This document shows, one piece after another, positions 23,069 through 45,464 of a DNA stretch of 64,000 bases. This DNA comes from Sanguibacter sp. HDW7 (GTDB lineage Bacteria; Actinomycetota; Actinomycetes; Actinomycetales; Cellulomonadaceae). The stretch spans positions 124,001 to 188,000 of the forward strand of contig NZ_CP049862.1 of the NCBI RefSeq assembly GCF_011300875.1, in the 5' to 3' direction. The translations under genes were made by a program, and so were the position numbers. Each line of letters opens with the position of its first letter. The stretch's first letter is position 1. The notes under the pieces are model-generated. The model saw only the letters and a program-made list of their open reading frames with translations. It made no database searches and was not told where the DNA came from.

Positions 23069-23140
23069 CGCGAGATAGGGGTGTGCCGTCGAGATAGGGG
23101 TCTGTAGGCCCCTATCTCGGCGCGCGACCCCTATCTCGCG
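23069..23140. repeat. 72-bp four-armed palindromic element, family A, copy 1
   Basis: Four arms share the core CGAGATAGGGG: plus at 23072 and 23090, minus at 23109 and 23130. The outer pair (CGCGAGATAGGGGT, 23069-23082, with 23127-23140) and the inner pair (23090-23100 with 23109-23119) are perfect and can form one long rod. It starts 14 bases after the GH1 stop. Three more 72-bp copies lie at 27472, 44806 and 45393. Confidence 0.9.
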
Positions 23141-23215
23141 ACGGGTGGCGCGACTCTAGAGCTCGCCGCCGCTCAAAGCCGTCGACGGCGACCGCTCGGT
23201 ACGGGATCATGCGGC

Positions 23216-23821
23216 ATGGCCATCTTTCCTCCCGTCCCGCGTCTGCTCGACGCTGCCCTCCGCGACGGAACCGTCGTGCGGGTCGAGCGCGTCGACGGGG
23301 ACAGCTGCGACGGTCGTGTCCTCGCGCTCGGGCGTCGCTGGGTGATCCTCGCTCAGCTGGCCGATCTCGGGCACCCGGACGGGCTCACGGTGCGCAGGCT
23401 CCGCGACGTCGACCACGTCACCCCGGCGCCTCTCAGCCAGCGCGCGTCCGCTCACCTCGTCGACTGGCCACCCACCGCGCCTGACGTCGACCTCGACAGC
23501 ACCCGCGCGATGCTCGCGTCATTGCTCACCGCCGACACGCTCGTCGGCATCGAGTGCATCGACGAGCCGGACCAGCGCTGGTACGGGCTCCCGCACGCGC
23601 TGCGCCGACGGGACCTCGACCTCTGGGAGCTCTCGCCCCAGTGCACGTGGCATGCGACCGAGTCCAGCTGGAGGCTGGGCAGCCTCACCGAGGTCGTCAT
23701 CGGCGACCGCTACGGGACGACGCTCGGCTCCCTCGCGCCTACGCCCCCGATCGCCCCGGAGGACAGCAGGTGGGCCCACGAGATCGACCGGCCACGCGAG
23801 GATGGTGTCCGTGCGCGTTGA
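23216..23821 (+). CDS. Hypothetical protein preceding the paralogue locus
   Basis: 201 aa from ATG 23216. The N-terminal ~70 residues (LLDAALRDGTVVRVERVDGD then RVLALGRRWVILAQLADLGH) look like a small beta-barrel, reminiscent of Sm/SH3-like domains. The rest (WYGLPHALRRRDLDLWELSP) is not recognised. Its last 20 bases overlap the next gene, so the two are co-translated. Function unknown. Confidence 0.7.
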   Translation: MAIFPPVPRLLDAALRDGTVVRVERVDGDSCDGRVLALGRRWVILAQLADLGHPDGLTVRRLRDVDHVTPAPLSQRASAHLVDWPPTAPDVDLDSTRAMLASLLTADTLVGIECIDEPDQRWYGLPHALRRRDLDLWELSPQCTWHATESSWRLGSLTEVVIGDRYGTTLGSLAPTPPIAPEDSRWAHEIDRPREDGVRAR

Positions 23822-25022
23822 CGTCACGGACGAGCTGCCGCTCCCGGTCGTCGTCGGGCTCGGGCAGCGCGTCGTCGTCGGCACCGCGACCCTTCCGGAG
23901 GGAACGGTCCTCCTCCTCGAGCTACGGATCGACGTCTGGGGCGACACTCGACGGCCCCGGGCCGATATGCGGCTCACGGCGGCCCTCGACATCGTCGCCG
24001 TCCTCGACCCGACCCCGTGGCGCCACGCCGGCGAGGCCTGGGCCGCCGCGACAGGGGACTGGTTCTTCTACGAGCCGTATGCGCCGGACGAGCTGCACGG
24101 CGCCGTCATCGACTGGCACGAGGACCCGGCCGACTTCGTGACCCTGCTGCGCGACCGCGACCATGACGACCTCGCTCGGGAGCTCGAGGCCGAGGCGCAC
24201 GGGAAGCTCGCCGTCGAGGAGATCGTTTCCATCGGCTCCGACGGCGTGCACGAGGTCGTGGAGATCACCTTGCGGGACATCGACCCACGGCTCGACCCCG
24301 ACATCGGGGGGCGAGGCAGGTTCGTCCAACGACGCTTCTCCCTCGAGATCTGCCCAGGGTGCGGAGCGCCCGACGAGCACATCGGTCGGCACATCGTCGG
24401 GCGGACCACGGACGAGATCCGCACCAAGGTCGCCGCACTCCTCCATGAGCTGGACGGCGCGCCTCGTCGCCTGTGGGACGACGAGCTGCGGGCGCGGTTC
24501 GACGTCGTCGCGCACGACCGGTGGTCGACGCTCGGATGGTACGGACCGGCGCGCCGGTCGGACCGGCACGTATACGTCGATGCGGTGCGGCACGACGAGC
24601 CGACCTTCGGTCCGGTCACCGTGGGTGCCGGCACCGCAGAACCCGGGGACGTCATGCTCCAGGGTGGTCTCGTCCTCCGGACGGACCCCGCGACGGGCGT
24701 CGTCCGCGGTGCCTGGTTGCCCCGACGTCCGTGGCGCAGGTACCGCGCTGAGTCCTTGAGCGGCCTCGAGACGGAGGGGTGGACGGCGTTCGTCAGGCAG
24801 GCTGCTGCCGGTCGCGCCCAGAGGCGCGAGCCTGCCGCTCGCTGGCGCGACAGCTGGGTGGCCGGACGTCCCCACAACGGCAGATCCGTCCGCATCGGGG
24901 AGGACCTCGTCCTCGCCGTCGGGATGTCGGGCGCCGTGGCAGGCTGGATGATCGACCGTGACGACGACGCCCGCCGTCGCGTGGTGCGAGGGCGGGCGTC
25001 GGGTGGGGCGTCGGGCCGGTAG
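23802..25022 (+). CDS. Unknown protein, paralogue of the 25921 gene, with Cys/His cluster
   Basis: 406 aa from ATG 23802. The middle and C-terminal parts match the 511-aa protein encoded at 25921 segment by segment: CPGCGAPDEHIGRH (Cys184 on), then LLHELDGAPRRLWDDELRAR then FDVV, LGWYGPARRSDRHVYV, LVLRTDPATGVVRGAWLPRR, VAGRPHNG..RIGEDLVLAV, MSGAVAGWM. The C..C..H..H set could bind metal. No signal peptide or TM helix. No known family recognised. Convergent with the PadR gene, 13 bases apart. Confidence 0.7.
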   Translation: MVSVRVDVTDELPLPVVVGLGQRVVVGTATLPEGTVLLLELRIDVWGDTRRPRADMRLTAALDIVAVLDPTPWRHAGEAWAAATGDWFFYEPYAPDELHGAVIDWHEDPADFVTLLRDRDHDDLARELEAEAHGKLAVEEIVSIGSDGVHEVVEITLRDIDPRLDPDIGGRGRFVQRRFSLEICPGCGAPDEHIGRHIVGRTTDEIRTKVAALLHELDGAPRRLWDDELRARFDVVAHDRWSTLGWYGPARRSDRHVYVDAVRHDEPTFGPVTVGAGTAEPGDVMLQGGLVLRTDPATGVVRGAWLPRRPWRRYRAESLSGLETEGWTAFVRQAAAGRAQRREPAARWRDSWVAGRPHNGRSVRIGEDLVLAVGMSGAVAGWMIDRDDDARRRVVRGRASGGASGR

Positions 25023-25035
25023 GCCCGGCCCGGTG

Positions 25036-25659
25036 TCACTCCGCGAGGAGCAGGTAGAGGGCGCGACGCGCCTCGTCGAGCTTCTCGGCGGCGGCCGTCT
25101 TCTGGTCGTCGGTGCCGCTGTGGCGGAGCTGCTGGATCGCGCCACGGAGCTTCATGGCCGACTCGTGGAAGGTCGCGTCGGCGGCGGAGAGGCCGGGGGT
25201 CGACGCCCAGGTGGCGGCGATCGCATCGGCGTTGTCGGTGACGTAGGTGCGACCCTCGTCCGTGAGCGAGTGCTCCGTGGAGCGGCCCTCGCCGGTCGTC
25301 GTGACGAGGCCCTCGTCGACGAGCTGCTGGAGCGTGGGGTAGACGGAGCCGGGGCTCGGGCGCCAGGCGTCGCCGGTCTTCTCGGCGATGGCCTTGATGA
25401 GGCCGTAGCCGTTCGACGGGGCGTCGGCGAGCAGCGAGAGCACGGCGAGGCGGACGTCGCCCCGTCCGGCGCGGCGCCCGCGTCCGCCGCGGGGGCCGAA
25501 GCCGGGTCCGCCTGGGCCGAAGCCGGGGCCGCCGGGTCCGAATCCGCTGCGTCCGCCACGGTGGCCGCGCGGGCCGCCGTCGCGACCGAAGCCGTCGTGG
25601 CGGTTGTGCTCGCGTCGCGGTCCGCGGCGCTCGAAGCTGGAGTTCATGGGGTTCCTCAT
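25036..25659 (-). CDS. PadR family transcriptional regulator with Gly/Pro-rich N-terminal extension
   Basis: 207 aa from ATG 25659, with AGGAGGA just upstream. Residues 1-65 are Arg/Gly/Pro-rich with three GFGPGGP-type repeats. Then follows a PadR winged helix (VRLAVLSLLADAPSNGYGLI, WRPSPGSVYPTLQQLVDEGL, STEHSLTDEGRTYV) and a C-terminal helical dimerisation region. Probably autoregulated through AT-rich palindromes immediately upstream (25700-25732). Its targets could include the two flanking paralogous genes; that is inference from position. Confidence 0.9.
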   Translation of the reverse strand: MRNPMNSSFERRGPRREHNRHDGFGRDGGPRGHRGGRSGFGPGGPGFGPGGPGFGPRGGRGRRAGRGDVRLAVLSLLADAPSNGYGLIKAIAEKTGDAWRPSPGSVYPTLQQLVDEGLVTTTGEGRSTEHSLTDEGRTYVTDNADAIAATWASTPGLSAADATFHESAMKLRGAIQQLRHSGTDDQKTAAAEKLDEARRALYLLLAE

Positions 25660-25699
25660 GGAAGTCCTCCTGGTGTTGTGGAGGGAGGATCTCTCCCTC

Positions 25700-25732
25700 G
25701 CGATACTTCACGATATATCGCTTACATATCGC
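25700..25732. promoter_or_regulatory. AT-rich palindromic operator/promoter between PadR and the divergent gene
   Basis: A strikingly AT-rich island in GC-rich DNA. It contains the perfect palindrome CGATATATCG (25711-25720), flanked by GCGATACTT and TACATATCGC, i.e. three GCGATAt-like half sites. PadR regulators usually bind such inverted repeats over their own promoter. Its position 41-73 bases before the padR start fits. Confidence 0.65.
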
Positions 25733-25920
25733 CCGTCAATGCCCTCTCTCCTGTCCGCGCCCGCCTTCCTCCCGGCGGACGGCGGGAGAGGGGATCGACG
25801 CCGGCCCGTGGGGTGCGGGAGCATGTGCCATGGCAACCTCTCGCTCGGTCCTGCGGTGGCACGCCGCCGCGCCCGCTGACACTCGCTGGGGCGACGAGAT
25901 GCGACGGGACACGAGCAGCG

Positions 25921-27456
25921 ATGCACCCTGACGACCGAGCGCGTACCCGGGGCCTGCTCGAGTTCCGTCGCGCGTTCCATCTCCGCTTCGCGAGCGTTCC
26001 CGACGACGAGGGCGGCTTCTACGACGCCGTCGACCGGCTCCCCGACGTCGCGTATCTCGCCCTGCGCCAGGGCGCGTCGCCTGCGCAAGCGGCACGACGC
26101 CTCAACGACGAGTGGGACGCGCTCGCCGAGTCGGGCGGGTACGCGAGCGACGACGAGCTCGCCGACTGGCTTGCCGAGCACGGCCCCGCGGCGCGTGACG
26201 GGGCGATCGCATGGGCGGATGACGCTGCCGACGACGCCCCGCCGAGCGAGGCCGAGCCGCAGCTGCGCGTGGTCCGTACACCGCCGGACGCGGGGCGTCC
26301 CGTCCTGCCCGCGTTCCTCGACCTCTGGCCCGGGTTCCTCTACGGCGTCGTCCGGCTCCCGGGCGGGACGGTGCTCGTCACCGAGGTGTGGGCGCAGTGG
26401 TCTCGGGGCCCGAGCCGCGACCTCGGTGACGACGAGAGCACCCTCGAGATGTACGTCGAACACGTCGAGATGCTCGACCCGGCACCCTGGCCCACCGACG
26501 CCGACGCGTGGGACCAGGTCGGACTCGACTGGGCGTTCTACGCGGAGGACAGGTGGGTCGACGTGCTCGGCGGGGCGACCTTCGACTGGTACGTCGAGGC
26601 CGATGACATCGAGACGCTCCTGCGGCCACACCTCAGGGCGGCCGACCTGCGCCGTGCCGTGGCCGCGGCCCGGGGTCGTCTCGAGGTCGACGAGCTCGTA
26701 CCCGCAGGATCGCGTGGGAGGCACGGCCTCGTCGAGATCGTGGCGCGCACAGGTGAACCGCCTGACGCTCCGGGCTTCGACCCGGAGAACTACCGTCTCC
26801 TCAAGCGTCGGCTGTTCCTCGAGACGTGCCCGCACCCCGCAGGGACGTGTGACCACACCGGGCGGCGTGTCGTCGTCGCGCGGACCGACGACGAGGTGCG
26901 CACCCGCGTCGACGAGCTCCTGCGCGAGGTGGGTGCCACCCCGCGGTCGCGGTGGGTCGACGAGCTCGCCGCACGCTTCGACGTCGTCGTGCCGGGCGTG
27001 CCGCTGCGTATCGGCTGGTACGGACCCGAGCGGCCGTCGGACCGGTTCACGTACGCCTCTGCCGCGCCGACGGACAGGCCGGAGTGCGGGCCCGTCGACG
27101 TCGGCGGTGGGCAGCCCAAGCCGGGCGACGTCCTCGTGCCCGGTGGCCTCGTCCTGCGGACCGACCCGGCGACAGGGGGTGTCCGAGGAGCGTGGCTCCG
27201 ACGGCGCCCGTGGCGCCGCCGCGCACGGCGATGGCTGCCGCGGCTGACGGACGCCGCGTGGAGCATCACCTTCGACAGCGTGGCCGCCGATGCGCCGGGC
27301 AGGGCGGCCGCGCGCCGAGGCGACGTCTGGGCCGGCGGACGCGTCGACGACGTCCCTCTCTACCGGGTCGGCGACGACCTGTGGCTCGCGATCGGCTCGT
27401 CGGGCGCCATCGCTGGATGGGTGGTCCGGCGAGGACGTCGGCGCCTGCCGACCTGA
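25921..27456 (+). CDS. Unknown protein, longer paralogue of the 23802 gene
   Basis: 511 aa from ATG 25921. About 120 extra N-terminal residues (HPDDRARTRGLLEFRRAFHL, DDELADWLAEHGPAARDG) precede the region shared with the 23802 protein. Shared parts include CPHPAGTCDHTGRR (from Cys303), LLREVGATPRSRWVDELAAR then FDVV, IGWYGPERPSDRFTY, LVLRTDPATGGVRGAWLRRR, VYRVGDDLWLAIG-like and GAIAGWVV. Acidic overall with no TM segment. The two paralogues flank the PadR gene, and copies of the 72-bp element bracket the whole locus. Function unknown. Confidence 0.7.
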   Translation: MHPDDRARTRGLLEFRRAFHLRFASVPDDEGGFYDAVDRLPDVAYLALRQGASPAQAARRLNDEWDALAESGGYASDDELADWLAEHGPAARDGAIAWADDAADDAPPSEAEPQLRVVRTPPDAGRPVLPAFLDLWPGFLYGVVRLPGGTVLVTEVWAQWSRGPSRDLGDDESTLEMYVEHVEMLDPAPWPTDADAWDQVGLDWAFYAEDRWVDVLGGATFDWYVEADDIETLLRPHLRAADLRRAVAAARGRLEVDELVPAGSRGRHGLVEIVARTGEPPDAPGFDPENYRLLKRRLFLETCPHPAGTCDHTGRRVVVARTDDEVRTRVDELLREVGATPRSRWVDELAARFDVVVPGVPLRIGWYGPERPSDRFTYASAAPTDRPECGPVDVGGGQPKPGDVLVPGGLVLRTDPATGGVRGAWLRRRPWRRRARRWLPRLTDAAWSITFDSVAADAPGRAAARRGDVWAGGRVDDVPLYRVGDDLWLAIGSSGAIAGWVVRRGRRRLPT

Positions 27457-27471
27457 ACGCCCGCCGTACCC

Positions 27472-27543
27472 CGCGAGCTAGGGGCCTGCCGCCGAGGTAG
27501 GGGGCTACAGGCCGCTACCTCGACGGCAGACCCCTATCTCGCG
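27472..27543. repeat. 72-bp four-armed palindromic element, family A, copy 2
   Basis: Outer arms CGCGAGCTAGGGG (27472-27484) and CCCCTATCTCGCG (27531-27543) pair with one mismatch. Inner arms CGAGGTAG (27493-27500) and CTACCTCG (27515-27522) pair. TGCCG/CGGCA extends the rod between them. Length and layout equal copy 1. Starts 16 bases after a stop codon. Confidence 0.85.
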
Positions 27544-27589
27544 AAAGTGGGCACTGTCTGGTGAGGGTGGCGGTCGGTAGGGTCGGGGC

Positions 27590-29299
27590 ATGAGTGCGCC
27601 TCGGTGGGTCGTTGCAGGTGGTCGCGCGGTTCGGGGCTGGGCATCCGGCCTCTCGACCACGGGGCTGTGGGTCGCGCTCCTCTTCTTCTGCGCGTCGCTC
27701 ACGCCCTCGCTCATCCCGCGCGTCTGGTTCTACCAGGCGATCGTCTCGGGCTTCTCGCTCGCCGTCGGCTACGGCGTCGGCCGCGCGTGCCTCGGCCTCG
27801 TCCGGATGCTCGGCTTCCGGCGGCCGCCGTCGGCGGCCGCCCAGCGGCGCTGGCTCCTTGCGCTCGGCGTCGTCGCCCTCGTGGCCGTCCCGACGATGAT
27901 GATCCTCGGCGCCCGCTGGCAGGACCGCATCCGGGGCCTCATGGGCGCCGAGCCAGGCCCCGCCTGGAACGCCCCGACGCAGGCCGTTGTCGCGGTCCTC
28001 CTCGCCGTCGCCCTGCTCCAGGCCGTGCGCGGACTGCGCTGGTGCGTGCGCCGCGTCGCACGCCTCGTCGGTCGATGGGTGCCCGCGCCGACCGCGCGCC
28101 TCGTCGGGTTCGTCGTCGTCGCCGTCCTCGCGGTGCTCGTCGTCGACGGCACCGTCGTCCGCGGCGCGCTCTCCGCGCTCAACTCGATCTACGCGAACGT
28201 CGACGACGGCACCCGCGAGGGTGTCGTCGCCCCGACGAGCCCGCTGCGATCGGGCTCGCCCGACTCCACGCAGGACTGGGACACGCTCGGCATCCAGGGC
28301 CGCACGTTCGTCGCCGGCGGGTTCGACGACGCGACGATCGCTGACGTCGCCGCACGTCGCGGAATCCCCGCCGACGACGTCCGCAGCCCCGTGCGCACGT
28401 ACGCGGGCATGTCGTCGGGCGAGACCCTCGACGACGTCGCCGCGAACGTCATCGCCGAGCTCGACCGCACCGACGCGTGGTCGCGCAGCGTGCTCGCCGT
28501 CGTCACGACGACGGGCACCGGCTGGGTCGACCCCTCGTTCTCCGACGCGTTCGAGCTCATGCACTCGGGTGACACTGCGATCGCCGCCATGCAGTACTCC
28601 TACCTGCCGAGCTGGGTGTCGTTCGTCGGTGACCGCTCGACGCCGCCCGCCGCGGGCCGCGCCCTCTTCGAGGCCGTCTACGAGGCCTGGTCCGCGCGCC
28701 CTGAGGGTGAGCGGCCACGGCTCGTCGCGTACGGCCTCTCGCTCGGCAGCTACGGCGGACAGGGCGCGTTCAGCGGCCTCCAGGACATGGCCGCCCGCAC
28801 CGACGGCGCCCTGTGGGTCGGCACGCCGGGCTTCACCGACCTCTGGAACGACCTCGCCCAGCACCGCGACGCCGGCTCCCCGCAGATCCAGCCCGTGCTC
28901 GACGGCGGCCACACCGTCCGCTGGAGCGCGACCCCCGGCGACGCGTCGAACCTCTTCGACCTTCCCGGCGAGTGGCCCGACCCGCGCATCGTCTACCTGC
29001 AGCACCCGTCGGACGGCGTCACCTGGTGGAACCCCGACCTCGTCCTCGGCAAGCCCGACTGGCTGCGCGAGAAGCGCGGCGCGGCCGTCCTGCCCGAGAT
29101 GGAATGGATCCCGTTCGTGACGTTTCTGCAGGTCACCGGCGACCTCATGGTGGCCGGCGACGTCCCGCCCGGCTATGGGCACTCCTATCACCTCGAGTAC
29201 GTCGACGGCATCGCCGCCGTCACCGCCCCCGAGCGGTGGACCGAGGCCGACCGCACGATCATCCGTGACCTCATGGCGGAGCAGCCCGTCGAGTCCTGA
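27590..29299 (+). CDS. Membrane-anchored alpha/beta-hydrolase family protein
   Basis: 569 aa from ATG 27590. Four to five TM helices occupy residues ~1-200 (LWVALLFFCASLTPSLIPRV, LLALGVVALVAVPTMMIL, LVGFVVVAVLAVLVVDGTVV). The C-terminal ~350 residues form an alpha/beta-hydrolase domain: GRTFVAGGFD, nucleophile elbow LVAYGLSLGSYGGQ, WNPDLVLGKPDWL, late PGYGHSYHLEYVDGIAAV. This matches the actinobacterial family with an N-terminal membrane bundle and a serine-hydrolase domain. The substrate is unknown. Confidence 0.85.
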   Translation: MSAPRWVVAGGRAVRGWASGLSTTGLWVALLFFCASLTPSLIPRVWFYQAIVSGFSLAVGYGVGRACLGLVRMLGFRRPPSAAAQRRWLLALGVVALVAVPTMMILGARWQDRIRGLMGAEPGPAWNAPTQAVVAVLLAVALLQAVRGLRWCVRRVARLVGRWVPAPTARLVGFVVVAVLAVLVVDGTVVRGALSALNSIYANVDDGTREGVVAPTSPLRSGSPDSTQDWDTLGIQGRTFVAGGFDDATIADVAARRGIPADDVRSPVRTYAGMSSGETLDDVAANVIAELDRTDAWSRSVLAVVTTTGTGWVDPSFSDAFELMHSGDTAIAAMQYSYLPSWVSFVGDRSTPPAAGRALFEAVYEAWSARPEGERPRLVAYGLSLGSYGGQGAFSGLQDMAARTDGALWVGTPGFTDLWNDLAQHRDAGSPQIQPVLDGGHTVRWSATPGDASNLFDLPGEWPDPRIVYLQHPSDGVTWWNPDLVLGKPDWLREKRGAAVLPEMEWIPFVTFLQVTGDLMVAGDVPPGYGHSYHLEYVDGIAAVTAPERWTEADRTIIRDLMAEQPVES

Positions 29300-29300
29300 G

Positions 29301-29385
29301 GGGCGTGCGCGTGCCCGCCGGCCTGCGCGTACGTGCGCGTCGGCGCGCGCGTGCGTCGGCGTGCGTGCGTGGGACGGCGGGGTGC
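29301..29385. repeat. Alternating GC/GT simple-sequence tract, possible Z-DNA former
   Basis: Just after the hydrolase stop, the sequence is dominated by (CG/GT)n: GTGCGCGTG, TGCGCGTACGTGCGCG, GGCGCGCGCGTGCG, GCGTGCGTGCG. Alternating purine-pyrimidine runs of this kind favour left-handed DNA and length variation. It carries no gene; the trpF promoter would lie just downstream. Confidence 0.6.
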
Positions 29386-29466
29386 GTCCGGGGGGGTGCG
29401 GCGTAGGCTCGGGCGTCATCCGCGCGGCCGGTTCGACGTCCTGCGCACGAGTCCTCGGAGGCGCAC

Positions 29467-30081
29467 ATGCTCGTGAAGATCTGTGGTCTGTCGACCGCCA
29501 CCACGGCGCGCGTCGCCGTCGAGGCGGGAGCTGGCGCGATCGGCGTCGTCATGAGCCCGCGCAGCCCCCGGCACGTCGACCGCACACAGGCGGTCGCGGT
29601 CGTGGAGGCTGCGCGCGCCGCGAGCTCCGAGGTGCTCACGGTGCTCGTCACGGCCGAGCTCTCCGCCGCCGACGCCGTGCGCGAGGCGCTCGCCGTCGGC
29701 GTCGACGCAGTCCAGCTTCACGGTCCGCGCTACGACCGCGTCGACCTTGCCGCCGTCGCCGCCGCGGGCCTCGTGCCGTGGCGCGCGGTGTCGCTCGCCG
29801 ACGACCCCGCGCCCGTCGTCGGCGCGCTCGGCGAGGACGTCCTTCTGCTCGACGCCCCCGTGCCCGGCTCGGGTGAGGCGTGGGACCTCGCGCTGCTCGG
29901 CGACCGCCGGCTCGAGGGTCGCTGGATGCTCGCGGGCGGCCTCACCCCGCTCAACGTCACGGACGCCCTGCGGGCGGTGCGCCCGTGGGGCGTCGACGTG
30001 TCCTCGGGCGTCGAGCGGACGCGTGGAGTCAAGGACGACGGGCTCGTGCGGGCCTTCGTCGAGGCGGCGCTCGGGGCCTGA
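29467..30081 (+). CDS. trpF: Phosphoribosylanthranilate isomerase
   Basis: 204 aa from ATG 29467. A TIM-barrel with the TrpF signatures VKICGL at the start (catalytic Cys), GAIGVVMSPRSPRHVD, AVQLHG, and GVDVSSGVERTRGVKD near the end, which binds the phosphate. It converts phosphoribosylanthranilate in tryptophan synthesis. No other trp gene is nearby. Its stop is 5 bases from that of the convergent GntR gene. Confidence 0.93.
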   Translation: MLVKICGLSTATTARVAVEAGAGAIGVVMSPRSPRHVDRTQAVAVVEAARAASSEVLTVLVTAELSAADAVREALAVGVDAVQLHGPRYDRVDLAAVAAAGLVPWRAVSLADDPAPVVGALGEDVLLLDAPVPGSGEAWDLALLGDRRLEGRWMLAGGLTPLNVTDALRAVRPWGVDVSSGVERTRGVKDDGLVRAFVEAALGA

Positions 30082-30086
30082 GGCCC

Positions 30087-32400: not shown

Positions 32401-32425
32401 CGAACTAGGATACAAGTTGTACCCC
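32401..32425 (-). promoter_or_regulatory. Putative promoter of the DsbA-like/CcdA operon
   Basis: On the minus strand the near-palindrome TACAACTTGTA runs into TATCCT. This leaves 6 bases to the GTG start codon, consistent with a leaderless transcript. The AT-rich character stands out from its surroundings. Confidence 0.5.
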
Positions 32426-32530: not shown

Positions 32531-32548
32531 GTGTCGAAAGGAGGCGAC

Positions 32549-35170: not shown

Positions 35171-35187
35171 CGGAACGAAGGACTGAC

Positions 35188-36973: not shown

Positions 36974-36986
36974 TCCAGGAGTTCCC

Positions 36987-38588: not shown

Positions 38589-38598
38589 GCGAAGGCGC

Positions 38599-38641
38599 GG
38601 TCGGGGCGGTCACGCAGCGACGCTGCGGGGCCGCCCCGACC
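38599..38641. terminator. Bidirectional terminator between GH5 and TetR genes
   Basis: GGTCGGGGCGG pairs with CCGCCCCGACC. An inner GCAGC/GCTGC hairpin lies inside. Placed between convergent genes, 11 bases past the GH5 stop. Confidence 0.8.
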
Positions 38642-38654
38642 CTCTGACCGGTGT

Positions 38655-39374
38655 TCAGGCGTCGTGGGGCGTCGTAGCGGGCTGCGTGAGCCGCGACGTC
38701 ACGACCGTCATCCACTCCGAGGCGAGCTCGGTCGCCGACGGGGAGTCGGGCCCGGACCGCTCGACGCTCTCGAGGTCGTGCTGGAAGCCCGCCCACAGGA
38801 GCCGCACGAACATCCGTACGGGGATGAGGAGCTCTTGGCCCGTCGCCTCGATGAGCCGCGTGAGCTCCTCGCCGATCGCCCCGAGCAGCAGCTCCTCGCG
38901 GGCCCGGTACGACTCGGCGAGCGCTTGGTCGCGGATCGCCAGGACGCGCATCTCGCTGTTGACGATGGCCCGACGGCGGTCGAACGTCAGGGAGTTGAGC
39001 AGTGTCGACGCGATCTCGCCGATCGCGTTGACGTCGTTCTCGTCGTCGCGCGTGCACGGGCCGGCGACGGCTGTGATCGCGGCGCGGAGCTGGGCGATCA
39101 CCTCGTCCTGCTCGCGCGTCGCGAGAGTGTCGAGCAGCTCGGCCTTGTCGGCGAAGTTCGAGTAGAAGGCGCCGCGCGTGAAGCCGGCGCGCTCGCAGAT
39201 CGCCTCGATCGACGTCGTGGCGATACCGGCCTCCGCGAAGAGCGAGAGCGCGGCGTCGAGGAGCTTCTCGCGGGTGCGGGCGCGCCGCGGCGAAGTCGCG
39301 ATGGCCTCGGTGAGCGCGGCCTCGACAGGGCTGGGTGCGCCTGTCTGCTCGTCCACGAGCCCTCCCGTCGTCAT
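38655..39374 (-). CDS. TetR family transcriptional regulator
   Basis: 239 aa. Helix-turn-helix RTREKLLDAALSLFAEAGIA then TTSIEAICERAGFTRGAFYSNF, the textbook TetR N-terminus, with a helical ligand domain after it. Divergent from the MMPL/YhgE pair, with a cluster of GTATCCGAT repeats between. Most probably it represses the exporter operon and itself. Confidence 0.92.
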   Translation of the reverse strand: MTTGGLVDEQTGAPSPVEAALTEAIATSPRRARTREKLLDAALSLFAEAGIATTSIEAICERAGFTRGAFYSNFADKAELLDTLATREQDEVIAQLRAAITAVAGPCTRDDENDVNAIGEIASTLLNSLTFDRRRAIVNSEMRVLAIRDQALAESYRAREELLLGAIGEELTRLIEATGQELLIPVRMFVRLLWAGFQHDLESVERSGPDSPSATELASEWMTVVTSRLTQPATTPHDA

Positions 39375-39392
39375 CCCCGAAGGGTACCTGTC

Positions 39393-39465
39393 GATACACG
39401 AGTGTATCCGATACAGATCTGCATCGGATACAGTGGCGTATCGGATGCAGCCATGTATCCATATC
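39393..39465. promoter_or_regulatory. TetR operator cluster upstream of the MMPL gene
   Basis: Overlapping inverted repeats: GATACACGAGTGTATC (39393-39408) and a 28-base near-perfect palindrome from GTATCCGATACAG to CTGCATCGGATAC (39404-39431). Then come CGTATCGGATGCAG and ATGTATCC. At least four GTATC/GATAC half sites, with AT-rich DNA in a GC-rich setting. Suits cooperative TetR binding between divergent genes. Confidence 0.75.
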
Positions 39466-39483
39466 GACCTCCCAGGAGCAGAC

Positions 39484-42309
39484 GTGTCCTCCTTCCTCTA
39501 CCGGCTCGGTCGGCGCATGGTGCGGCACCGGCGTGCCGTCGTCGCCGTCGTGCTCGCCCTGCTCGTCGCGCTCGGCGCGGCCGCGGGCCTCCTGCAGAAG
39601 GGCATGGACAACTCCGTCTCCATCCCCGGCACCGAGTCGCAGGCCGCGCTCGACCGCCTGGCCGCGACGTTCCCCGAGGTCTCTGGCGCGAGCGCACAGA
39701 TCCTCGTCGTCTCGCCCGCGGGCACGTCAGTCCGTGACGAGAAGGTCGCGGACGAGGTGCGTGCCACGACCGACGCCCTCGCCGCACGCAGCGATGTCCG
39801 CGGTGTCCAGTCGCCCTTCACCGACACGCTCACGGGCGATCCCGTGAGCGCCGCGGACGCGACAGGGCTCTCCGACGACGGCCGCGCCGCGCTCGTCACC
39901 GTCATGATGGACGGCGCCGGCACCGAGATCCCTACTGAGGTCAAGGACGAGATCGTCGACATCGTCGGGGATCTCGACGCGCAGCTGCCCGAAGGCTGGT
40001 CCGCGACGGTCGGCGGCGAGCTCTTCTCCTCGGAGTTCCCCACGATCACCGTGACCGAGGCCCTCGGCGTCGGTATCGCGCTCGTCGTCCTCGTCCTCAC
40101 CCTCGGCTCGCTCGTCGCCGCGGGCCTGCCGCTGCTCAACGCGATCGTCGGCGTCGTCATCGCCATGGCGCTCGTCCTGCTCGCGACCGCCGTGACACCC
40201 GTCAACTCCTCGACGCCCATGCTCGCGCTCATGCTCGGCCTCGCCGTCGGCATCGACTACGCGCTCTTCATCGTCTCGAGGCACCGCGACCAGCTCCGCG
40301 ACGGCCTCGACGTCGAGGAGTCGATCGCCCGCGCGACCGCGACCTCCGGCTCCGCAGTCCTCTTCGCGGGACTCACCGTGATGATCGCGCTCGTCGGGCT
40401 CGGCGTCGCAGGCATCCCGTTCCTCACGACGATGGGTGTCGCCGGTGCCGTCGCGGTCGCCGTCGCAGTCGTCGTCTCCGTGACGCTCACGCCTGCGCTG
40501 CTCGGGTTCGCGGGCGAACGCGTCCGGCCCCGCGCGCCGCGTCGGGCACGGCGCGCGGAGGCGCGCGCCGCCGCGGCCCACACCGCGTCGACGGCTCCGG
40601 ACGGTGCCGCTCCCGCCGGACCCGCTCCCGAGGACGCCCCGTCCCGGGGCGCGCACACCGAGGCGCCCCGCACCCGCGCCGACAGGTTCTTCGCCGGGTG
40701 GGTCCACGCTGTCACCCGACGCCCCATCCTCACGATCGTCGCGGTCCTCGGGGTCGGGACCTTCCTCGCGCTGCCCGCGCTCGACCTCCGCCTCGCCCTC
40801 CCCAACGCGGGCGTCCTCCCGGAGTCCAGCCAGGCACGCCAGACGTACGACCGCGTCACCGAGCACTACGGCCCGGGTGCCAACGGCCCGCTCATCGTCA
40901 CGGGATCGATCCTCACGAGCGACGACCCGCTCGGCCTCGCCGAGAAGATCGCCGACGAGATGCGCGCGCTGCCCGGCGTCGCCGCCGTGCCGCTCTCGAC
41001 CCCCAACGCGTCGGCCGACACGCTCATCGTCCAGGTCGTCCCCACGACCGGCCCGACCGACGAGGCCACGGCCGAGCTCGTCCAGACGATCCGTGACCAG
41101 CGCGAACGTCTCGAGCGCGAGTACGACGTCGACATCGCCGTCACCGGGTTCACCGCCGTCGGCATCGACGTCTCCGCAAAGCTCGGATCCGCACTGCTGC
41201 CGTTCGGCATCTTCGTCGTCGGCCTCTCGCTCATCCTCCTCACGATGGTCTTCCGCTCTGTCGCCGTCCCGCTCAAGGCGACGTTCGGCTACCTGCTCTC
41301 CGTCGTCGCCGCCTTCGGCGTCGTCGCCGCCGTCTTCGAGAACGGCGTCGCCGCCGACCTTCTCCACGTCGCGAAGCTCGGGCCCGTCATCTCGTTCATG
41401 CCGATCGTCCTCATGGGCGTGCTCTTCGGCCTCGCCATGGACTACGAGGTCTTCCTCGTCTCCCGCATCCGCGAGGAGTACGTCCACGGTGGCGACGCCC
41501 GCGCAGCGATCCGCTCCGGGTTCCGGGGCTCGGCCCAGGTCGTCACAGCCGCCGCGGTCATCATGTTCTCCGTCTTCTTCTTCTTCGTCCCCGAGGGCGA
41601 CGTCAACATCAAGCCCATCGCGCTCGGCCTCGCCGTCGGTGTGTTCGTCGACGCGTTCCTCGTCCGCATGACCCTCGTCCCCGCGGTGCTCGAGCTCCTC
41701 GGCGACAAGGCGTGGTGGATGCCCCGCTGGCTCGACCGGGTGCTGCCGTCGTTCGACGTCGAGGGCGAGGGGCTCCATGCCGAGCTCGCCCTCGAGGGCT
41801 GGCCCGCGACCGGGACTGCCATCGCCGCACGCGGCCTGCGCGTCGACGAGCGTGCCGGCCTCGCTGCGGACGTCGACGTCGAGGTCCCTGAGGGTGGCGT
41901 GCTCGTCGTCGACGGGCCCGCCCGCGAGGTCACCGGCCTGCTGCTCACCCTCGCTGGGCGCGTCCCGCCCCTCGCGGGTGACCTCAAGGTCGACGGGCTC
42001 TCCCTTCCGCACCGTGCGGGTGCCGTCCGTCGACGCGTCGGCTGGATCGACTCGCGCCACGCCGACGCGCGCGCCGTCGAGGCCGCGCTCCGCGAGGACC
42101 CGCGCGTCCTCGTCGTCGACGCGGCCCACCACCTCCACGGCTCGACCCGCACCGGAGACGCGCTCCTGGCCGCCCAGGAGGCGGGCACGACGCTCGTGCT
42201 CGGCACGTCCGGCGCCGACGTCCTGCCGCCAGGGATCGTCCCGACGCACCGCCTCACCCTCACGTCCGCCCCCGCAGGCGCTCCCGTCGCCGTCGGAGCG
42301 ATGCGATGA
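39484..42309 (+). CDS. MMPL/RND-family membrane transporter with ABC-ATPase-like C-terminal domain
   Basis: 941 aa from GTG 39484 (CAGGAG upstream). Two MMPL repeats, each with one TM, a large extracytoplasmic loop and five TMs. The first block includes LALMLGLAVGIDYALFIVSR, the second VLMGVLFGLAMDYEVFLVSR. Asp in GxDY/MDYE is the usual proton-relay region. Residues ~760-941 resemble an ABC ATPase core (LTLAGRVPPLAGDLKVDGLS, DPRVLVVDAAHH as Walker B), but the Walker A lysine motif is absent (VDGPAREVTGLLL). So the domain probably does not hydrolyse ATP. Lipid or drug export is likely. Coupled to the next gene by ATGA. Confidence 0.9.
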   Translation: MSSFLYRLGRRMVRHRRAVVAVVLALLVALGAAAGLLQKGMDNSVSIPGTESQAALDRLAATFPEVSGASAQILVVSPAGTSVRDEKVADEVRATTDALAARSDVRGVQSPFTDTLTGDPVSAADATGLSDDGRAALVTVMMDGAGTEIPTEVKDEIVDIVGDLDAQLPEGWSATVGGELFSSEFPTITVTEALGVGIALVVLVLTLGSLVAAGLPLLNAIVGVVIAMALVLLATAVTPVNSSTPMLALMLGLAVGIDYALFIVSRHRDQLRDGLDVEESIARATATSGSAVLFAGLTVMIALVGLGVAGIPFLTTMGVAGAVAVAVAVVVSVTLTPALLGFAGERVRPRAPRRARRAEARAAAAHTASTAPDGAAPAGPAPEDAPSRGAHTEAPRTRADRFFAGWVHAVTRRPILTIVAVLGVGTFLALPALDLRLALPNAGVLPESSQARQTYDRVTEHYGPGANGPLIVTGSILTSDDPLGLAEKIADEMRALPGVAAVPLSTPNASADTLIVQVVPTTGPTDEATAELVQTIRDQRERLEREYDVDIAVTGFTAVGIDVSAKLGSALLPFGIFVVGLSLILLTMVFRSVAVPLKATFGYLLSVVAAFGVVAAVFENGVAADLLHVAKLGPVISFMPIVLMGVLFGLAMDYEVFLVSRIREEYVHGGDARAAIRSGFRGSAQVVTAAAVIMFSVFFFFVPEGDVNIKPIALGLAVGVFVDAFLVRMTLVPAVLELLGDKAWWMPRWLDRVLPSFDVEGEGLHAELALEGWPATGTAIAARGLRVDERAGLAADVDVEVPEGGVLVVDGPAREVTGLLLTLAGRVPPLAGDLKVDGLSLPHRAGAVRRRVGWIDSRHADARAVEAALREDPRVLVVDAAHHLHGSTRTGDALLAAQEAGTTLVLGTSGADVLPPGIVPTHRLTLTSAPAGAPVAVGAMR

Positions 42310-44789
42310 CCGCCCCCGTCAGGAAGGACCCCGTCATGACCCGGTCCACGCAGCGCAGGTGGCTCCTCGCCCTCGTCGCGCTCCTCGTGCCCGTCGCGCT
42401 CGTCGCGACGATGCTCGCCTCGCAGTGGGACCCCGCCTCCCGCGCGTCCGACATCACCGCAGCCGTCGTCAACCACGACGAGCCCGTGACGATCGACGGT
42501 CAGCTCACGCCGCTCGGCCGCCAGCTCGCGGCCGAGCTCGTCAAGGGTTCGCGCTCGCGCGGCGGCTGGACCTGGGTCGTCACCGACGCCGACGACGCCT
42601 CGACGGGGCTCGAGGCCGGCACCTACGCCGCCGTCGTCACCATCCCTGAGACGTTCTCCGCCGACGCCACGTCGTTCGCGGACGGCGACGGCGCACGCCA
42701 GGCACGCATCGACGTCGCGTCCGCACAGGGCTCGACCGCGACCCGCGACCTCGTGACCACGGCGCTCGCCGACGCAGCAACCGTCGGCCTGGGCCGCCAG
42801 CTCACCCGGTCGTTCGTCGAGCAGGTCCTCGTCGGCTTCTCGACGACCGGCGACCAGCTCGGCCAGGCCGCCGACGGCGCCCACCAGCTCGCCGACGGTG
42901 CGGGCAAGCTCGCGGACGGGCAGCAGCAGCTCGCCGACGGCGCCGACACCCTCGCGTCCGGCACCGGGACCCTCGCCGACGGGCTCGGCACCCTCGCGAC
43001 CGGGGCCGGAAGCGCCGCAACCGGAGCCACGACCCTCGCCACCGGCGCCGGGACCCTCGCGACCGGCGCGAAGGACCTCGCCTCCGGCGCGCGCGACCTG
43101 GCCGCAGGCACCAAGCCGCTCGCGACCGGTGCGACACAGTCCTCCGACGGCGCCAAGGACCTCGCGAAGGGCGCGAAGGACCTCGCCGGCGGGGCCAAGG
43201 CTCTCGCGACCGGCACGACCGGGATCGCCGAGGGCGCCACAGCGCTCGCGGACGGCGCGAAGCCGCTCGCTGAGGGGGCCGACGCCGTCGCCGACGGCGT
43301 CGAGAGCGTGCTCGCCGGGGTGCGCGCAATGCAGCCGGGGGTCGCGAAGCTGCCCGGGAGCGTTGCCGCGCTCAGGGCGGCGCTCGACCAGCTCGACGAC
43401 GTGACCTCGCAGCTCACCACGGTGCGCGCCCAGATGGGTGCGGCGGGGTGCGCGGCGGACCGCTCGGCGCCCGGCTGCCCCGAGCTCCTCGGGGCAGAGC
43501 TGGAGCTCGAGGCAGCGTACGGGCAGCTCCTTGACGGGCTCGAGGGAGGGCTCGCCGCGCTGGAGGGTGACCCGACGGCCGACCCGAAGGACGCCTCCGC
43601 AGGCCTCCACGGCCTCGTCGCCGGGCTCGGCGCCCTCGTCGGCGACCCGAAGGCCGACCCGACGGACCCCACCGCCGGCCTCCACGGCCTCGCAGCAGGC
43701 GCCCGCGGTGTCGCCGACGGCGCCGACGCGCTCTCCTCCGGTGCCACGGCGCTCGCGACCGGCGCGAACGATCTCGCCACCGGGGCGAGCGCGCTCGCGG
43801 ACGGCACCTCGTCCCTCTCGTCGGGTGCGACGAGCCTTTCCGGCGGACTCTCCAAGCTCGCCGCAGGGACGACGACCCTCTCGCAGGGCGCGGGCACGCT
43901 CGCCTCCGGCGCCGGAAAGCTCTCCTCCGGGACCGCCGGCCTCGCGGGCGGGGCGAAGGACCTTGCCAGCGGCGTCGGCCAGCTCTCCGAGGGCGCGCGC
44001 GGCGCGTCCGACGGGGCCGTCGCGCTGCGCGACGGCGCCTCGACGCTCGCCGACGGGCTCGGACAGACCCTGCCCGGCACCACGCAGCTCACCTCCGGCG
44101 CGCGCGACCTGGCAAGCGGCCTCGGCACGGCCGTCGACGAGCTCGCGAAGCAGAAGGTCGCCGACCCGACCTCGCTCGCGGACGTCGTCGTGCAGCCCGT
44201 CGCCTCGCCCGCGGCACGTGAACTCGGCCCGATCGGCGCGGTGGGCGTGACGATGGCCGTCGCCCTGTGGCTCGGCACGCTCGTCCTCACGATGCGGCCG
44301 CGGATCTCGGGTGCCGCGACCCTCGGCACGACCCGTTCGTCGTTCCAGGTCACTGCCCGGGGGATCGGCGTGACGTCGGCAGTCGCCGCCGTGCAGGGTG
44401 CGCTCGCGGGCGTCGTCGTCGCGCTCGTCACCGAGGCGCCGTGGGTCGTCGTGCCGGCTGCGGCGCTCGTCGCCGTCGTCCTGCTGTGGTTCCTCCACGC
44501 GGTCGTCGCGTGGGCGGGCAACGTGGGGCGGGCCTTCGCGCTCGTCGTCGGCGTCGCCGTCCTCGTCGCGTCGGCGTCGCCGTCGGCGCCCGCGTGGGTC
44601 GGCAGCCTCGGGCAGCTGGGACCGCTGGATGCGGCTTCACGCTTCCTCGGCGGGCTCTCCCACGAGGGTGCTGCAGGCGGCGCGCTCGTCGTCCTCCTCG
44701 TGTGGGCAGGCGTCTCCGCGGCAGCCGCGGTCGGTGCCACGACGTGGCACCGCCGCCAGGCAGGCCAAGCCCTCCTAGCAACGACGTAG
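42306..44789 (+). CDS. YhgE/Pip-family membrane protein with heptad repeats
   Basis: 827 aa, ATG 42306 (overlaps the MMPL stop); ATG 42336 is possible. One N-terminal TM (residues ~18-38) is followed by an extracytoplasmic domain. From ~185 to ~615 many seven-residue units of type xLAdGAxxLAxGA occur in two blocks, around a segment with two Cys (GAAGCAADRSAPGCPELLGA). Five to six TMs end the protein. This is the YhgE/Pip architecture found next to MMPL genes in actinobacteria; Lactococcus Pip is a phage receptor. Role in export with the MMPL protein is inferred. Confidence 0.9.
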   Translation: MTAPVRKDPVMTRSTQRRWLLALVALLVPVALVATMLASQWDPASRASDITAAVVNHDEPVTIDGQLTPLGRQLAAELVKGSRSRGGWTWVVTDADDASTGLEAGTYAAVVTIPETFSADATSFADGDGARQARIDVASAQGSTATRDLVTTALADAATVGLGRQLTRSFVEQVLVGFSTTGDQLGQAADGAHQLADGAGKLADGQQQLADGADTLASGTGTLADGLGTLATGAGSAATGATTLATGAGTLATGAKDLASGARDLAAGTKPLATGATQSSDGAKDLAKGAKDLAGGAKALATGTTGIAEGATALADGAKPLAEGADAVADGVESVLAGVRAMQPGVAKLPGSVAALRAALDQLDDVTSQLTTVRAQMGAAGCAADRSAPGCPELLGAELELEAAYGQLLDGLEGGLAALEGDPTADPKDASAGLHGLVAGLGALVGDPKADPTDPTAGLHGLAAGARGVADGADALSSGATALATGANDLATGASALADGTSSLSSGATSLSGGLSKLAAGTTTLSQGAGTLASGAGKLSSGTAGLAGGAKDLASGVGQLSEGARGASDGAVALRDGASTLADGLGQTLPGTTQLTSGARDLASGLGTAVDELAKQKVADPTSLADVVVQPVASPAARELGPIGAVGVTMAVALWLGTLVLTMRPRISGAATLGTTRSSFQVTARGIGVTSAVAAVQGALAGVVVALVTEAPWVVVPAAALVAVVLLWFLHAVVAWAGNVGRAFALVVGVAVLVASASPSAPAWVGSLGQLGPLDAASRFLGGLSHEGAAGGALVVLLVWAGVSAAAAVGATTWHRRQAGQALLATT

Positions 44790-44805
44790 CCCTGCACCGA
44801 CGTCT

Positions 44806-44877
44806 CGCGAGATAGGGGTCTCCATGCGAGATAGCGGCCTACCGACCGCTATCTCGCGTGGCTGCCCCTATCTCGCG
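44806..44877. repeat. 72-bp four-armed palindromic element, family A, copy 3
   Basis: Outer arms CGCGAGATAGGGG (44806-44818) and CCCCTATCTCGCG (44865-44877) pair perfectly. Inner arms GCGAGATAGCGG (44826-44837) and CCGCTATCTCGC (44846-44857) also pair perfectly. The inner core has a compensatory G-to-C change (TAGCGG with CCGCTA), so pairing is kept although sequence changed. Lies between the convergent Pip and VOC genes. Confidence 0.9.
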
Positions 44878-44904
44878 TTCCCGCCACCGCCCAGTGCGGG
44901 GCGG

Positions 44905-45318
44905 TCAGCGGTCGCGGGAGGAGAGCACGCAGAACTCGTTGCCCTCCGGGTCGCGCAGGACGGTCCAAAAAACGTCGCCCTGCCCGACGTCCGCGGGGGT
45001 CGCGCCCCGCGCGAGGAGCGAGGCGATCTCCGCGTCGCGATCGTCGTCGACGTGCGGTGCGAGATCGATGTGCAGGCGGTTCTTCACCTGCTTGTCCTCG
45101 GGCACCTTGACGAAGACGAGGCCCTGCGGCAGCCCGGTCCAGCGCTCGTGCGGCACGGGCGACATGGGGTCGAGGTCCGCAGGCCAGTGCCGGGGGATGA
45201 GCACGAGCTCGTCGTCGGCCTCGTAGATGATCTGCCAGTCGAGCGTCTCCGCCCACCAATGACCCTGGGCGGCGACGTCGTGCGAGTCGATGACCGTCGT
45301 GTAGAAGCGAAGCGCCAT
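44905..45318 (-). CDS. VOC (glyoxalase-like) family protein
   Basis: 137 aa from ATG 45318. MALRFYTTVIDSHDVAAQGH, WWAETLDWQIIYEADDELVL, NRLHIDLAP and DPEGNEFCVLSS form the paired beta-alpha-beta-beta-beta modules of the vicinal-oxygen-chelate fold. His in RLHIDL and Glu in GNEFCV are possible metal ligands. The substrate is unknown. Single gene, bracketed by family A elements 3 and 4. Confidence 0.85.
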   Translation of the reverse strand: MALRFYTTVIDSHDVAAQGHWWAETLDWQIIYEADDELVLIPRHWPADLDPMSPVPHERWTGLPQGLVFVKVPEDKQVKNRLHIDLAPHVDDDRDAEIASLLARGATPADVGQGDVFWTVLRDPEGNEFCVLSSRDR

Positions 45319-45392
45319 GAGAGTCCTCCATCCGGGGACCCCGTCGTCCCCACCTGCCCGACGCTACCCCCTGCCCCCGCGGTAGCAACTCA

Positions 45393-45464
45393 CGCGAGAT
45401 GGGGGTGCAGCGCCCAGATAGGGGCCTGCGGGCCCCTATCTGGCGTCCTGACCCCTAGCTCGCG
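45393..45464. repeat. 72-bp four-armed palindromic element, family A, copy 4
   Basis: Outer arms CGCGAGATGGGGGT (45393-45406) and ACCCCTAGCTCGCG (45451-45464) pair imperfectly. Inner arms CGCCCAGATAGGGGCC (45411-45426) and GGCCCCTATCTGGCG (45431-45445) pair almost fully. Located 26 bases past the pirin stop. Confidence 0.85.

Follow-up and report, generated by a model that had tools for sequence, protein, structure and literature searches.

RAYT genes are flanked by REPs, and such a pairing of an enzyme gene with repeats is among the closest described counterparts of the elements considered here. REPs are described as palindromes of 20–40 bp with a GTAG or CGTC tag at one end (PMC3733652), and REPs and REPINs that occur with RAYTs as palindromic extragenic repeats (PMC3733652, PMC2817692, PMC3116915, PMC8266576). 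The repeats found in the window, which is the whole 64,000-nucleotide stretch of Sanguibacter sp. HDW7 DNA that was analysed, belong to a class that resembles them in being short, palindromic and extragenic, in combining a common tag with an otherwise lineage-specific sequence, and in having an enzyme gene, here one encoding an AbiEi-nuclease, flanked by repeat copies while non-autonomous copies are dispersed. However, the arrays described here are 67–72 bp long with four arms at a 19-bp step, they carry no single-sided GTAG tag but have CGAGRTAG inside the stem on every arm, and the enzyme is AbiEi-like with a Vsr/EDxHD nuclease domain and not of the Y1/HUH type. A RAYT-driven REP was rejected, as the Y1 transposase family PF01797 was found in only one of 20 genomes (S. 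hominis) and not in that of the window.

Two other systems resemble the enzyme rather than the repeat. AbiE type IV toxin-antitoxin systems share with it the N-terminal AbiEi fold and have family members that bind inverted repeats; AbiEi and its relative Rv2827c are described as binding inverted repeats in their own promoters, four of them in the case of Rv2827c (PMC7319586). Here, in contrast, a nuclease domain is fused, the array copies are dispersed over the genome, and arrays lie on both sides of the gene. The C-terminal domain has, in one structure model, the fold of the EDxHD homing endonuclease I-Bth0305I and of Vsr, but here two copies of the enzyme's presumed site enclose the gene, and no intron or intein was noticed. 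Among the titles and abstract openings listed from the open-access literature, none ties AbiEi/Vsr-like genes to palindromic arrays.

The four repeats described in an earlier note on this DNA are all present at the coordinates given there, each of 72 bp and none with an assigned strand, and the reported arrangement also holds, with four 11-bp arms per copy that start at an exact 19-bp step in the order +,+,−,−. Copy 1, of the GGGG type (23069..23140; arms 23071–23081(+), 23090–23100(+), 23109–23119(−), and 23128–23138(−)), lies 3′ of a plus-strand gene ending at 23055, and copy 2 (27472..27543; arms 27474–27484(+), 27493–27503(+), 27512–27522(−), and 27531–27541(−)) lies 3′ of one ending at 27456. 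Copy 3 (44806..44877), with convergent genes on either side, has no element at the orthologous place of a same-genus genome (G004), and the compensatory change noticed in its inner arms (TAGCGG/CCGCTA) is real. The inner arms of copy 4 (45393..45464), which is 3′ of the minus-strand gene 45490–46503, have compensated CCAGATAG/CTATCTGG. With up to two mismatches, the window contains the arm CGAGATAGGGG at 37 places, whereas shuffled sequence averages 22.1 (0/100 shuffles as high), and 16 of these 37 matches are arms of the four copies. All four fold far below shuffled sequence on both strands (z −4.2 to −11.2), with 0/200 shuffles matching in seven of the eight folds and 1/200 for the minus strand of copy 4. 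Long palindromes spanning at least 46 nucleotides number nine in the window and zero in each of five Markov shuffles. Two further palindromes with a 19-bp step lie nearby, one of a second array family with CACGCGG arms (47069..47128) and one of a third with CTACCCGCAAGTT arms (47181..47246). By eye they correspond in type to array pairs around AbiEi-nuclease genes, the first to the pair around C1:3000993–3001967 in the same genome and the second to a pair in G004. The window holds copies of three array types.

In the genome of the window the 72-bp element has 13 strict copies, against none in the reversed control, plus about ten diverged relatives, with a bias toward gene 3′ ends, contrary to the possibility that the four were the only copies and had no such bias. 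The earlier note knew of no named repeat of this kind, and Rfam 15 at gathering score matched only four tRNAs in the window and nothing at the elements. The four-arm plan recurs, around a CGAGRTAG core and with a tail particular to each genome, in Sanguibacter, Flavimobilis, Oerskovia, Cellulosimicrobium, Cellulomonas, Sediminihabitans, and Actinomyces, and 214 non-redundant elements with genome-specific tails were collected from 22 genomes. A three-arm pattern was found in 11/396 genomes of the order, with a reversed control of 0 among the matches listed, and the named genomes among the matches listed in a wider genome scan are all actinobacterial. Both scans required CGAGNTAG, which the element finder also scores, and the common core outside the genus is thus in part a product of the search itself. 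For the genus, copies were taken from model R1 and the finder allows up to three mismatches over four octamers; there, CGAGATAG accounts for 54/88 arms in the genome of the window and 74/84 in F. rhizosphaerae, while CGAGGTAG accounts for 70/100 in G002 and 43/64 in S. hominis. The class to which the four repeats belong consists of actinobacterial DNA palindromes that are dispersed within genomes and patchy in their distribution. Carriage by phage was rejected, the exact four-arm pattern having no match in viral contigs. Separately, of the 26 elements listed in the genome of the window, 22 are at most 600 kb away from contig coordinate 0 (KS p about 1e-6); no dnaA was seen in the first 3 kb of the contig, and a reading as origin-proximal clustering was dropped.

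The claim that the element always stands past a stop codon is correct for the window (4/4) but not genome-wide. Among 24 elements examined in that genome, with gene ends taken from our own gene caller, 17 adjoin the 3′ end of a gene on one side or both, 13 of them at no more than 40 bp, six lie between two 5′ ends, and one is inside a predicted gene. A larger set of 110 elements gave 50 between convergent genes, 37 in tandem gaps, where the median distance from the stop is 27 bp and 33 are closer to the stop than to the start, and 13 in divergent (5′|5′) gaps, the rest being inside predicted genes (8) or at locus edges (2). Sharing of genes that adjoin elements was counted 67 times among genomes of one genus, where about 2 cases would be expected, and 36 times between genera, where about 9 would be, both expectations coming from a rough null. 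A gene for an FAD-binding oxidoreductase recurs beside elements in a conserved locus of Oerskovia, Sediminihabitans, and Cellulosimicrobium.

The 13 strict copies support the rod-like pairing, in which arms 1:4 and 2:3 are nested, with a covariation of 0.096 versus 0.036 that is above all 500 shuffles. The crossed alternative (1:3 and 2:4), which had been put forward as also possible, has little support in the same copies, since 46/500 shuffles are as high on covariation and 12/500 on percent paired. Strong folding and covariation, together with the preference for 3′ ends close to stop codons, are what would be expected of an RNA-level element such as a bidirectional terminator or a 3′-end stabiliser with a long hairpin, a role that the earlier note had implied and that is not supported. 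The arrays do resemble intrinsic terminators in placing a GC-rich hairpin past stop codons; however, they have no U-tract and no wobble preference. On the sense strand there are 24 wobble pairs versus 18 A-C mismatches (p=0.44), and across all 214 elements, where the strand is arbitrary, 194 versus 207, while at least six T in the 10 nt past the element follow 0/92 3′ ends and at least four follow 5/92. In addition, a stem does not require common octamers, 13 of the 110 elements are in 5′|5′ gaps, and such an element would not account for arrays bracketing a single gene family. The terminator reading is weakened by the missing T-run and wobble preference, and RNA-level function in general is distinctly improbable. 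Because G-U is no commoner than A-C and there is no T-run, the pairing constraint looks to be at the level of DNA, and the conserved primary sequence and the link to AbiEi-nuclease genes likewise point to a DNA-level element.

That link is the frequent bracketing of AbiEi-like + Vsr/EDxHD fusion genes by matching arrays whose motifs differ from gene to gene. Among 45 genes fetched by protein similarity alone, counted after repeat views of one gene had been removed, 33 had a flank similarity of at least 40, compared to 0/70 control genes, although this cut-off was set after the controls' maximum of 38 was known; at lower cut-offs the controls are not separated (39/45 versus 38/70 at 25). The comparison with mismatched flanks gave 33/44 genes versus 11/600, and 16/27 versus 4/600 in a phylum panel that omits two of 29 loci because contig ends shift the place of the gene. 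A similarity of 40 was not reached by 12/45 genes and by 11/27 in the panel. Long palindromes on both sides (score at least 16, within 600 bp) flank 5/30 genes versus 0/39 and 0/35 controls, but a palindrome on either side alone (score at least 10) is common among controls as well, accompanying 19/30 genes versus 13/39 and 12/35. In most genomes tested the bracket motif matches the dispersed motif: in 7/11, the bracket arms place the home genome's dispersed copies first. Own copies rank second in S. hominis and O. turbata, fourth in O. enterophila, and tenth in the genome of the window. In this comparison genome G065 is ranked from one dispersed copy, and G124, which has no copies besides the brackets, is left unranked.

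Symmetrical DNA sites beside genes for AbiEi-type proteins might also be operators through which the protein regulates itself and a regulon, with the dispersed copies being regulatory sites that are not moved by the enzyme. This agrees with the binding of inverted repeats by AbiEi and Rv2827c in their own promoters, four in Rv2827c (PMC7319586), with a symmetry that looks DNA-level given the absence of a wobble preference, and with the core octamer common to the model-found copies of four same-genus genomes. It is nonetheless unlikely, as the elements are mostly between convergent genes or, in tandem gaps, nearer the stop, with only 13/110 in divergent gaps, arrays lie on both sides of the gene in 9/12 genomes with CGAGNTAG-type brackets, the whole element and not the site alone is genome-specific, and a nuclease-like domain is fused.

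The bracketing has exceptions. For the GGGG type found in the window, the genome of the window contains no bracketed gene, and the likeness to RAYT genes fails there. The three family members in that genome are associated with TCC-type arrays, with CACGCGG-type arrays, and, in the case of a partial match with a stop, with a short palindrome that differs in type and flanks one side; none of the F. rhizosphaerae genes with examined flanks carries the CGC type of that genome. The gene family is present in 30/30 genomes tested, with or without CGAGRTAG elements, so its presence does not predict them, and in 43/396 across the phylum at E 1e-30. In S. hominis and G002 two elements enclose a gene that is found next to elements again in Sediminihabitans, two Oerskovia, G124, and a MAG; the arrays of S. 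hominis and G002 enclose a NUDIX gene as well. An unrelated transposase could have moved the arrays, the AbiEi-nuclease genes being passengers or insertions beside them, as the unbracketed GGGG type, the patchy distribution, and the other ordinary genes beside or between arrays might suggest. This is very improbable, however, given that gene-specific motifs match on both sides and track the genome and, loosely, the protein clade (the CGAGNTAG label makes 6 changes on the protein tree versus 10.8 shuffled, 1/500 as low, helped by near-copies), that inspection of the loci by eye revealed no other gene flanked by array halves, and that a RAYT-type Y1 transposase was not found in 19/20 genomes.

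The proteins themselves are matched by PADLOC AbiEi models in 10/10 cases (best E 2.4e-15 to 4.5e-4); their matches to Pfam and NCBIfam models are weak and do not reach the cut-off. In a structure model of one of them (pLDDT 84.2), the N-terminal part resembles AbiEi (6y8q; Z 10.6, rmsd 5.6) and the C-terminal part I-Bth0305I (3r3p; Z 11.7, 95 residues, rmsd 2.5) and Vsr (1cw0; Z 9.4). The TCC-bracketed gene in the genome of the window encodes V at the position of an E conserved in the eight aligned proteins, and its product may therefore be a weak or dead nuclease.

Ten of the 24 elements examined in that genome have an element at the orthologous F. rhizosphaerae site with both flanks matching, and there seven carry that genome's own CGC-type arms, two are mixed, and one keeps the TCC type, such that positions are conserved and the sequence has changed. 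MITEs, like these arrays, are non-autonomous, palindromic, and dispersed, but no gene-bearing half-elements or parental insertion sequence with the same ends were recognised by eye in the loci, and the one site compared for an empty site and target duplication kept only TCGCGA and established no clean case. An autonomous transposon with array ends was rejected, as the half-arrays listed are by eye nearly all parts of larger or decayed palindromes.

The bracketing suggests that repeat and enzyme form a self-spreading pair of a new kind. It is probable, by a small measure, that the arrays and the AbiEi-nuclease form a REP/RAYT-like system with an unrelated enzyme, which would spread and homogenise the arrays by binding, cutting, and repair. 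The 72-bp element would then be one non-autonomous copy of such an array, a phased palindrome with two CGAGRTAG sites 19 bp apart per arm and the arms facing each other, and arrays of this kind would be the putative cognate DNA sites of AbiEi-nuclease proteins, the genes of which are often bracketed by two of them. Like AbiEi antitoxins on their inverted repeats, the AbiEi part would bind the inverted, phased sites; the nuclease domain would nick or cut at the array, and host repair or replication would copy the array from one site to another or to new locations, whereby arrays would multiply, become homogenised within a genome, and persist mainly in gaps at gene ends. The chances are evenly balanced that this is a previously undescribed class of selfish module of Actinomycetota, with a bracketed AbiEi/EDxHD-nuclease gene, a motif that diversifies with the protein, enzyme-driven spread and homogenisation of array copies within each genome, and several modules of different motif in one chromosome. 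If true, this would be a second, independently evolved solution to the job done by RAYT and REP, with an enzyme put together from an antitoxin fold and a homing-endonuclease-like domain, and a clear case of concerted evolution among dispersed repeats at conserved positions. It would also give a function to the widespread AbiEi/Vsr-like protein group, and the flanks of the gene would directly predict the DNA site of many of these proteins, so that binding and cutting would be testable at once.

The four 72-bp palindromes of the window (23069-23140, 27472-27543, 44806-44877 and 45393-45464) are real and as the earlier note had described: a direct check of the sequence gives 11-bp arms ordered +,+,-,- with a step of 19 bp, and in folding both strands of the copies form a single rod. 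The genome of Sanguibacter sp. HDW7, a single contig (C1) of 3,351,553 bases in which the window is C1:124001-188000, contains 13 copies of the four-arm pattern (≤3 mismatches) and none of the reversed pattern, and exact two-arm matches are all parts of these copies. The covariance model that had been proposed as a check, built here from these 13 copies (R1), adds about ten more diverged elements in the same genome, most of which have TCC where GGGG stands in the strict copies. The GGGG type, the family of the window copies (13 copies), has a centre of 14 nt and a mean pairwise identity of 78%, and the TCC type (9 copies) a centre of 13 nt and an identity of 73%. Of the 26 listed elements in this genome, 22 are no more than about 600 kb away from contig coordinate 0; dnaA was not seen in the first 3 kb of the contig.

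The strict pattern was not found in 58 relatives. R1 detects the element, with different tails, in three of the five further genomes of the genus, the remaining two giving none at E 0.001. The three-arm CGAGNTAG pattern has matches in 11 of the 396 genomes of the order, several of which carry a single copy, and the reversed control gave none among the matches listed. In a separate scan of a collection of named genomes, the matches listed (at least 120 stretches) come from Sanguibacter hominis, Flavimobilis rhizosphaerae, Sediminihabitans luteus, Actinomyces israelii, one MAG, Oerskovia turbata, O. merdavium, O. enterophila, O. rustica and O. douganii, two Cellulosimicrobium cellulans strains and three Cellulomonas. 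By far the commonest order among the chains found was ++-- (211), and longer arrays (+++--, ++++----, ++++++--) hold a step of 19 or 20 bp. The tail after the core is specific to each genome, and in several the outer and inner arms have distinct consensus sequences, which makes it look as if the element is copied as a whole.

Two ways of pairing had been considered in the earlier note, and it is the nested one that stands: nested pairs covary in the 13 copies (0 of 500 shuffles as high) and crossed pairs hardly do. Among 56 elements from 22 genomes (at most three per genome), the 32-bp rod is paired in 87.6% of cells versus 71.5% when shuffled, with a covariation score of 0.428 versus 0.150 (0 of 500 as high). 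The octamers vary little across elements, partly because they were search targets, and the linkers, which lie outside the search pattern, are variable yet still complementary. Selection on a transcript should favor G-U over A-C mismatches, but G-U is not better tolerated (in 29 tandem elements, read on the sense strand, 24 versus 18, p=0.44; 194 versus 207 in all 214 elements, where strand is arbitrary), and hence the symmetry of the rod is probably kept at the DNA level, through binding sites or copying. A T-rich tract after the rod was not found, with at least six T in 10 nt at 0 of 92 3' ends and at least four at 5 of 92.

With genes called by a codon-usage script, 50 of 110 elements in the examined loci lie in convergent gaps, 37 in tandem gaps and 13 in divergent gaps; the other 10 fall within predicted genes (8) or at the edge of a locus (2). 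Compared with the 50 predicted gaps of the window (7 convergent, 37 tandem, 6 divergent), convergent gaps are over-represented. In tandem gaps, 33 of 37 elements are closer to the stop than to the start (median distances 27 and 96 bp).

Arms turn over at fixed sites. Ten of 24 elements of the Sanguibacter sp. HDW7 genome are matched by an element at the orthologous site in F. rhizosphaerae, where both flanks are ∼77-95% identical; seven of these pairs have CGC-type arms in F. rhizosphaerae versus GGGG or TCC in the window's genome, two have mixed arms there, and one conserves the TCC type. Genes neighboring elements are held in common within genera (67 versus ∼2 expected) and between them (36 versus ∼9), by a rough null (3,300 genes, 60% shared) and with protein identity above 90% between some named genera. 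F. rhizosphaerae has no elements at the sites of copies 3 and 4, and TCGCGA remains at the former. Just both ends of the gene between these copies (glyoxalase-like by eye) are left there (G004:C15:127000-141500, locus L298, versus window 44700-45600). Elements at 2860353 and 2865083 of the window's genome (L013/L010), ∼4.7 kb apart, correspond to one F. rhizosphaerae element (L129), as if the segment between them had been lost or gained by inter-array recombination. An FAD-binding oxidoreductase gene repeatedly adjoins elements at a conserved locus of Oerskovia, Sediminihabitans and Cellulosimicrobium, and we take it as an ordinary neighbor.

Elements also adjoin genes for AbiEi-nuclease, an AbiEi-like protein fused to a Vsr/EDxHD (homing-endonuclease-like) domain. 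In S. hominis and a second genome (G002), one such gene is enclosed by two elements, together with a NUDIX gene. A tblastn search with this gene places relatives close to counted elements (32-211 bp away) in S. hominis, G002, Sediminihabitans, O. turbata, O. rustica and G124; one more relative, in a MAG, is separated by 27 bp from a decayed element, and one in F. rhizosphaerae lies at a distance of 5.7 kb from an element. PADLOC AbiEi models match 10 of 10 proteins examined. Pfam gives weak matches that stay under its cut-off: of eight proteins, three match MTES_1575, described as a Vsr-type REase (PMC3710099), four match AbiEi_4 or AbiEi_1 and one has no match; of five others, one has such a match. 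For the S. hominis protein, AlphaFold2 predicts a structure (pLDDT 84.2) in which residues 9-190 resemble AbiEi 6y8q (Z 10.6, rmsd 5.6) and residues about 193-298 resemble both I-Bth0305I 3r3p (Z 11.7) and Vsr 1cw0 (Z 9.4).

AbiEi-nuclease genes are often bracketed by arrays, and in most of the genomes ranked the bracket motifs match those of dispersed copies. The genes were located in 30 genomes by protein alignment before their flanks were inspected, which avoids the bias of starting from elements. Many of the genes have matching palindromic arrays to the left and right, and the motifs vary from gene to gene (for example, CGAGATCGAC in G062, CGAGTCAGAC in G250, GACTTCGG in G011, CTACCCGCAAGTT in F. 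rhizosphaerae, CGAGGTAGACATTTTCCGC in G181). Long palindromes (score ≥16) flank 5 of 30 genes on both sides, but none of 39 window genes and none of 35 genes taken from other loci; when a palindrome on either side is enough, the difference is smaller (16/30 versus 6/39 and 3/35; at score 10, 19/30 versus 13/39 and 12/35). Left-right flank similarity of at least 40, a cut-off chosen after the controls, is found for 33 of 45 genes versus 0 of 70 controls, and for 33/44 versus 11/600 mismatched flanks (16/27 versus 4/600 in a phylum-wide panel). When bracket arms from the 12 genomes whose brackets are of the CGAGNTAG type (nine of them with both sides seen) were compared with dispersed copies from 21 genomes, a genome's own copies took first place in 7 of the 11 genomes ranked, second place in two, fourth in one, and tenth in the window's genome. 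Mapped onto a 48-protein tree, the CGAGNTAG label requires 6 changes versus 10.8 when shuffled (1 of 500 as low), near-copies contributing. One genome from a different family of the class has an AbiEi-nuclease gene between GAGCAGACG-type palindromes (L386, G565:C1), and partial AbiEi-nuclease matches with an internal stop adjoin palindromes with GTGTGCACA-type cores in F. rhizosphaerae and the window's genome (L355, L356).

Three members of the AbiEi-nuclease family were found in the window's genome. The gene at C1:13128-14012 has TCC-type arrays on both sides, whose arms match dispersed TCC elements at a mean of 9.0-10.75 of 11 positions versus 8.0-9.25 for GGGG; its protein is 46% identical to that of S. 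hominis, with V replacing the conserved second E of AESPGES. The gene at C1:3000993-3001967 has CACGCGG arrays on both sides, and a dispersed array that is by eye of this type, with a 19-bp step, lies at window 47069-47128. Another 19-bp-step array, at window 47181-47246, is by eye of the type that brackets an AbiEi-nuclease gene in F. rhizosphaerae. The third member is a partial match with an internal stop, and on one side it has a short palindrome of a different type. A gene bracketed by GGGG arrays was not found among these members, so the window's GGGG family is at present an orphan, which is where the argument for the four window copies is weakest. The window also has three more long intergenic palindromes (39392-39443, 53168-53218 and 57327-57375) and, inside a long open reading frame, a 21-bp tandem repeat (42843-44058).

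A REP/RAYT-like system driven by an unrelated enzyme is the explanation with the most support. Sequence comparison shows the bracketing and the motif match; from these we infer binding and cutting of the arrays by AbiEi-nuclease, and their copying: the AbiEi fold would bind phased inverted sites, the nuclease domain would open the DNA, and repair would copy the arrays. The AbiEi relative Rv2827c is described as binding four inverted repeats (PMC7319586). The general plan is like that of REP/RAYT, in which palindromic repeats are paired with a RAYT transposase, but the system differs in both enzyme and tag, two features that define REP/RAYT, and it is therefore not classed there. With the reservation that its general plan is REP/RAYT-like, we rate the pair of array and AbiEi-nuclease as categorically new as a system.
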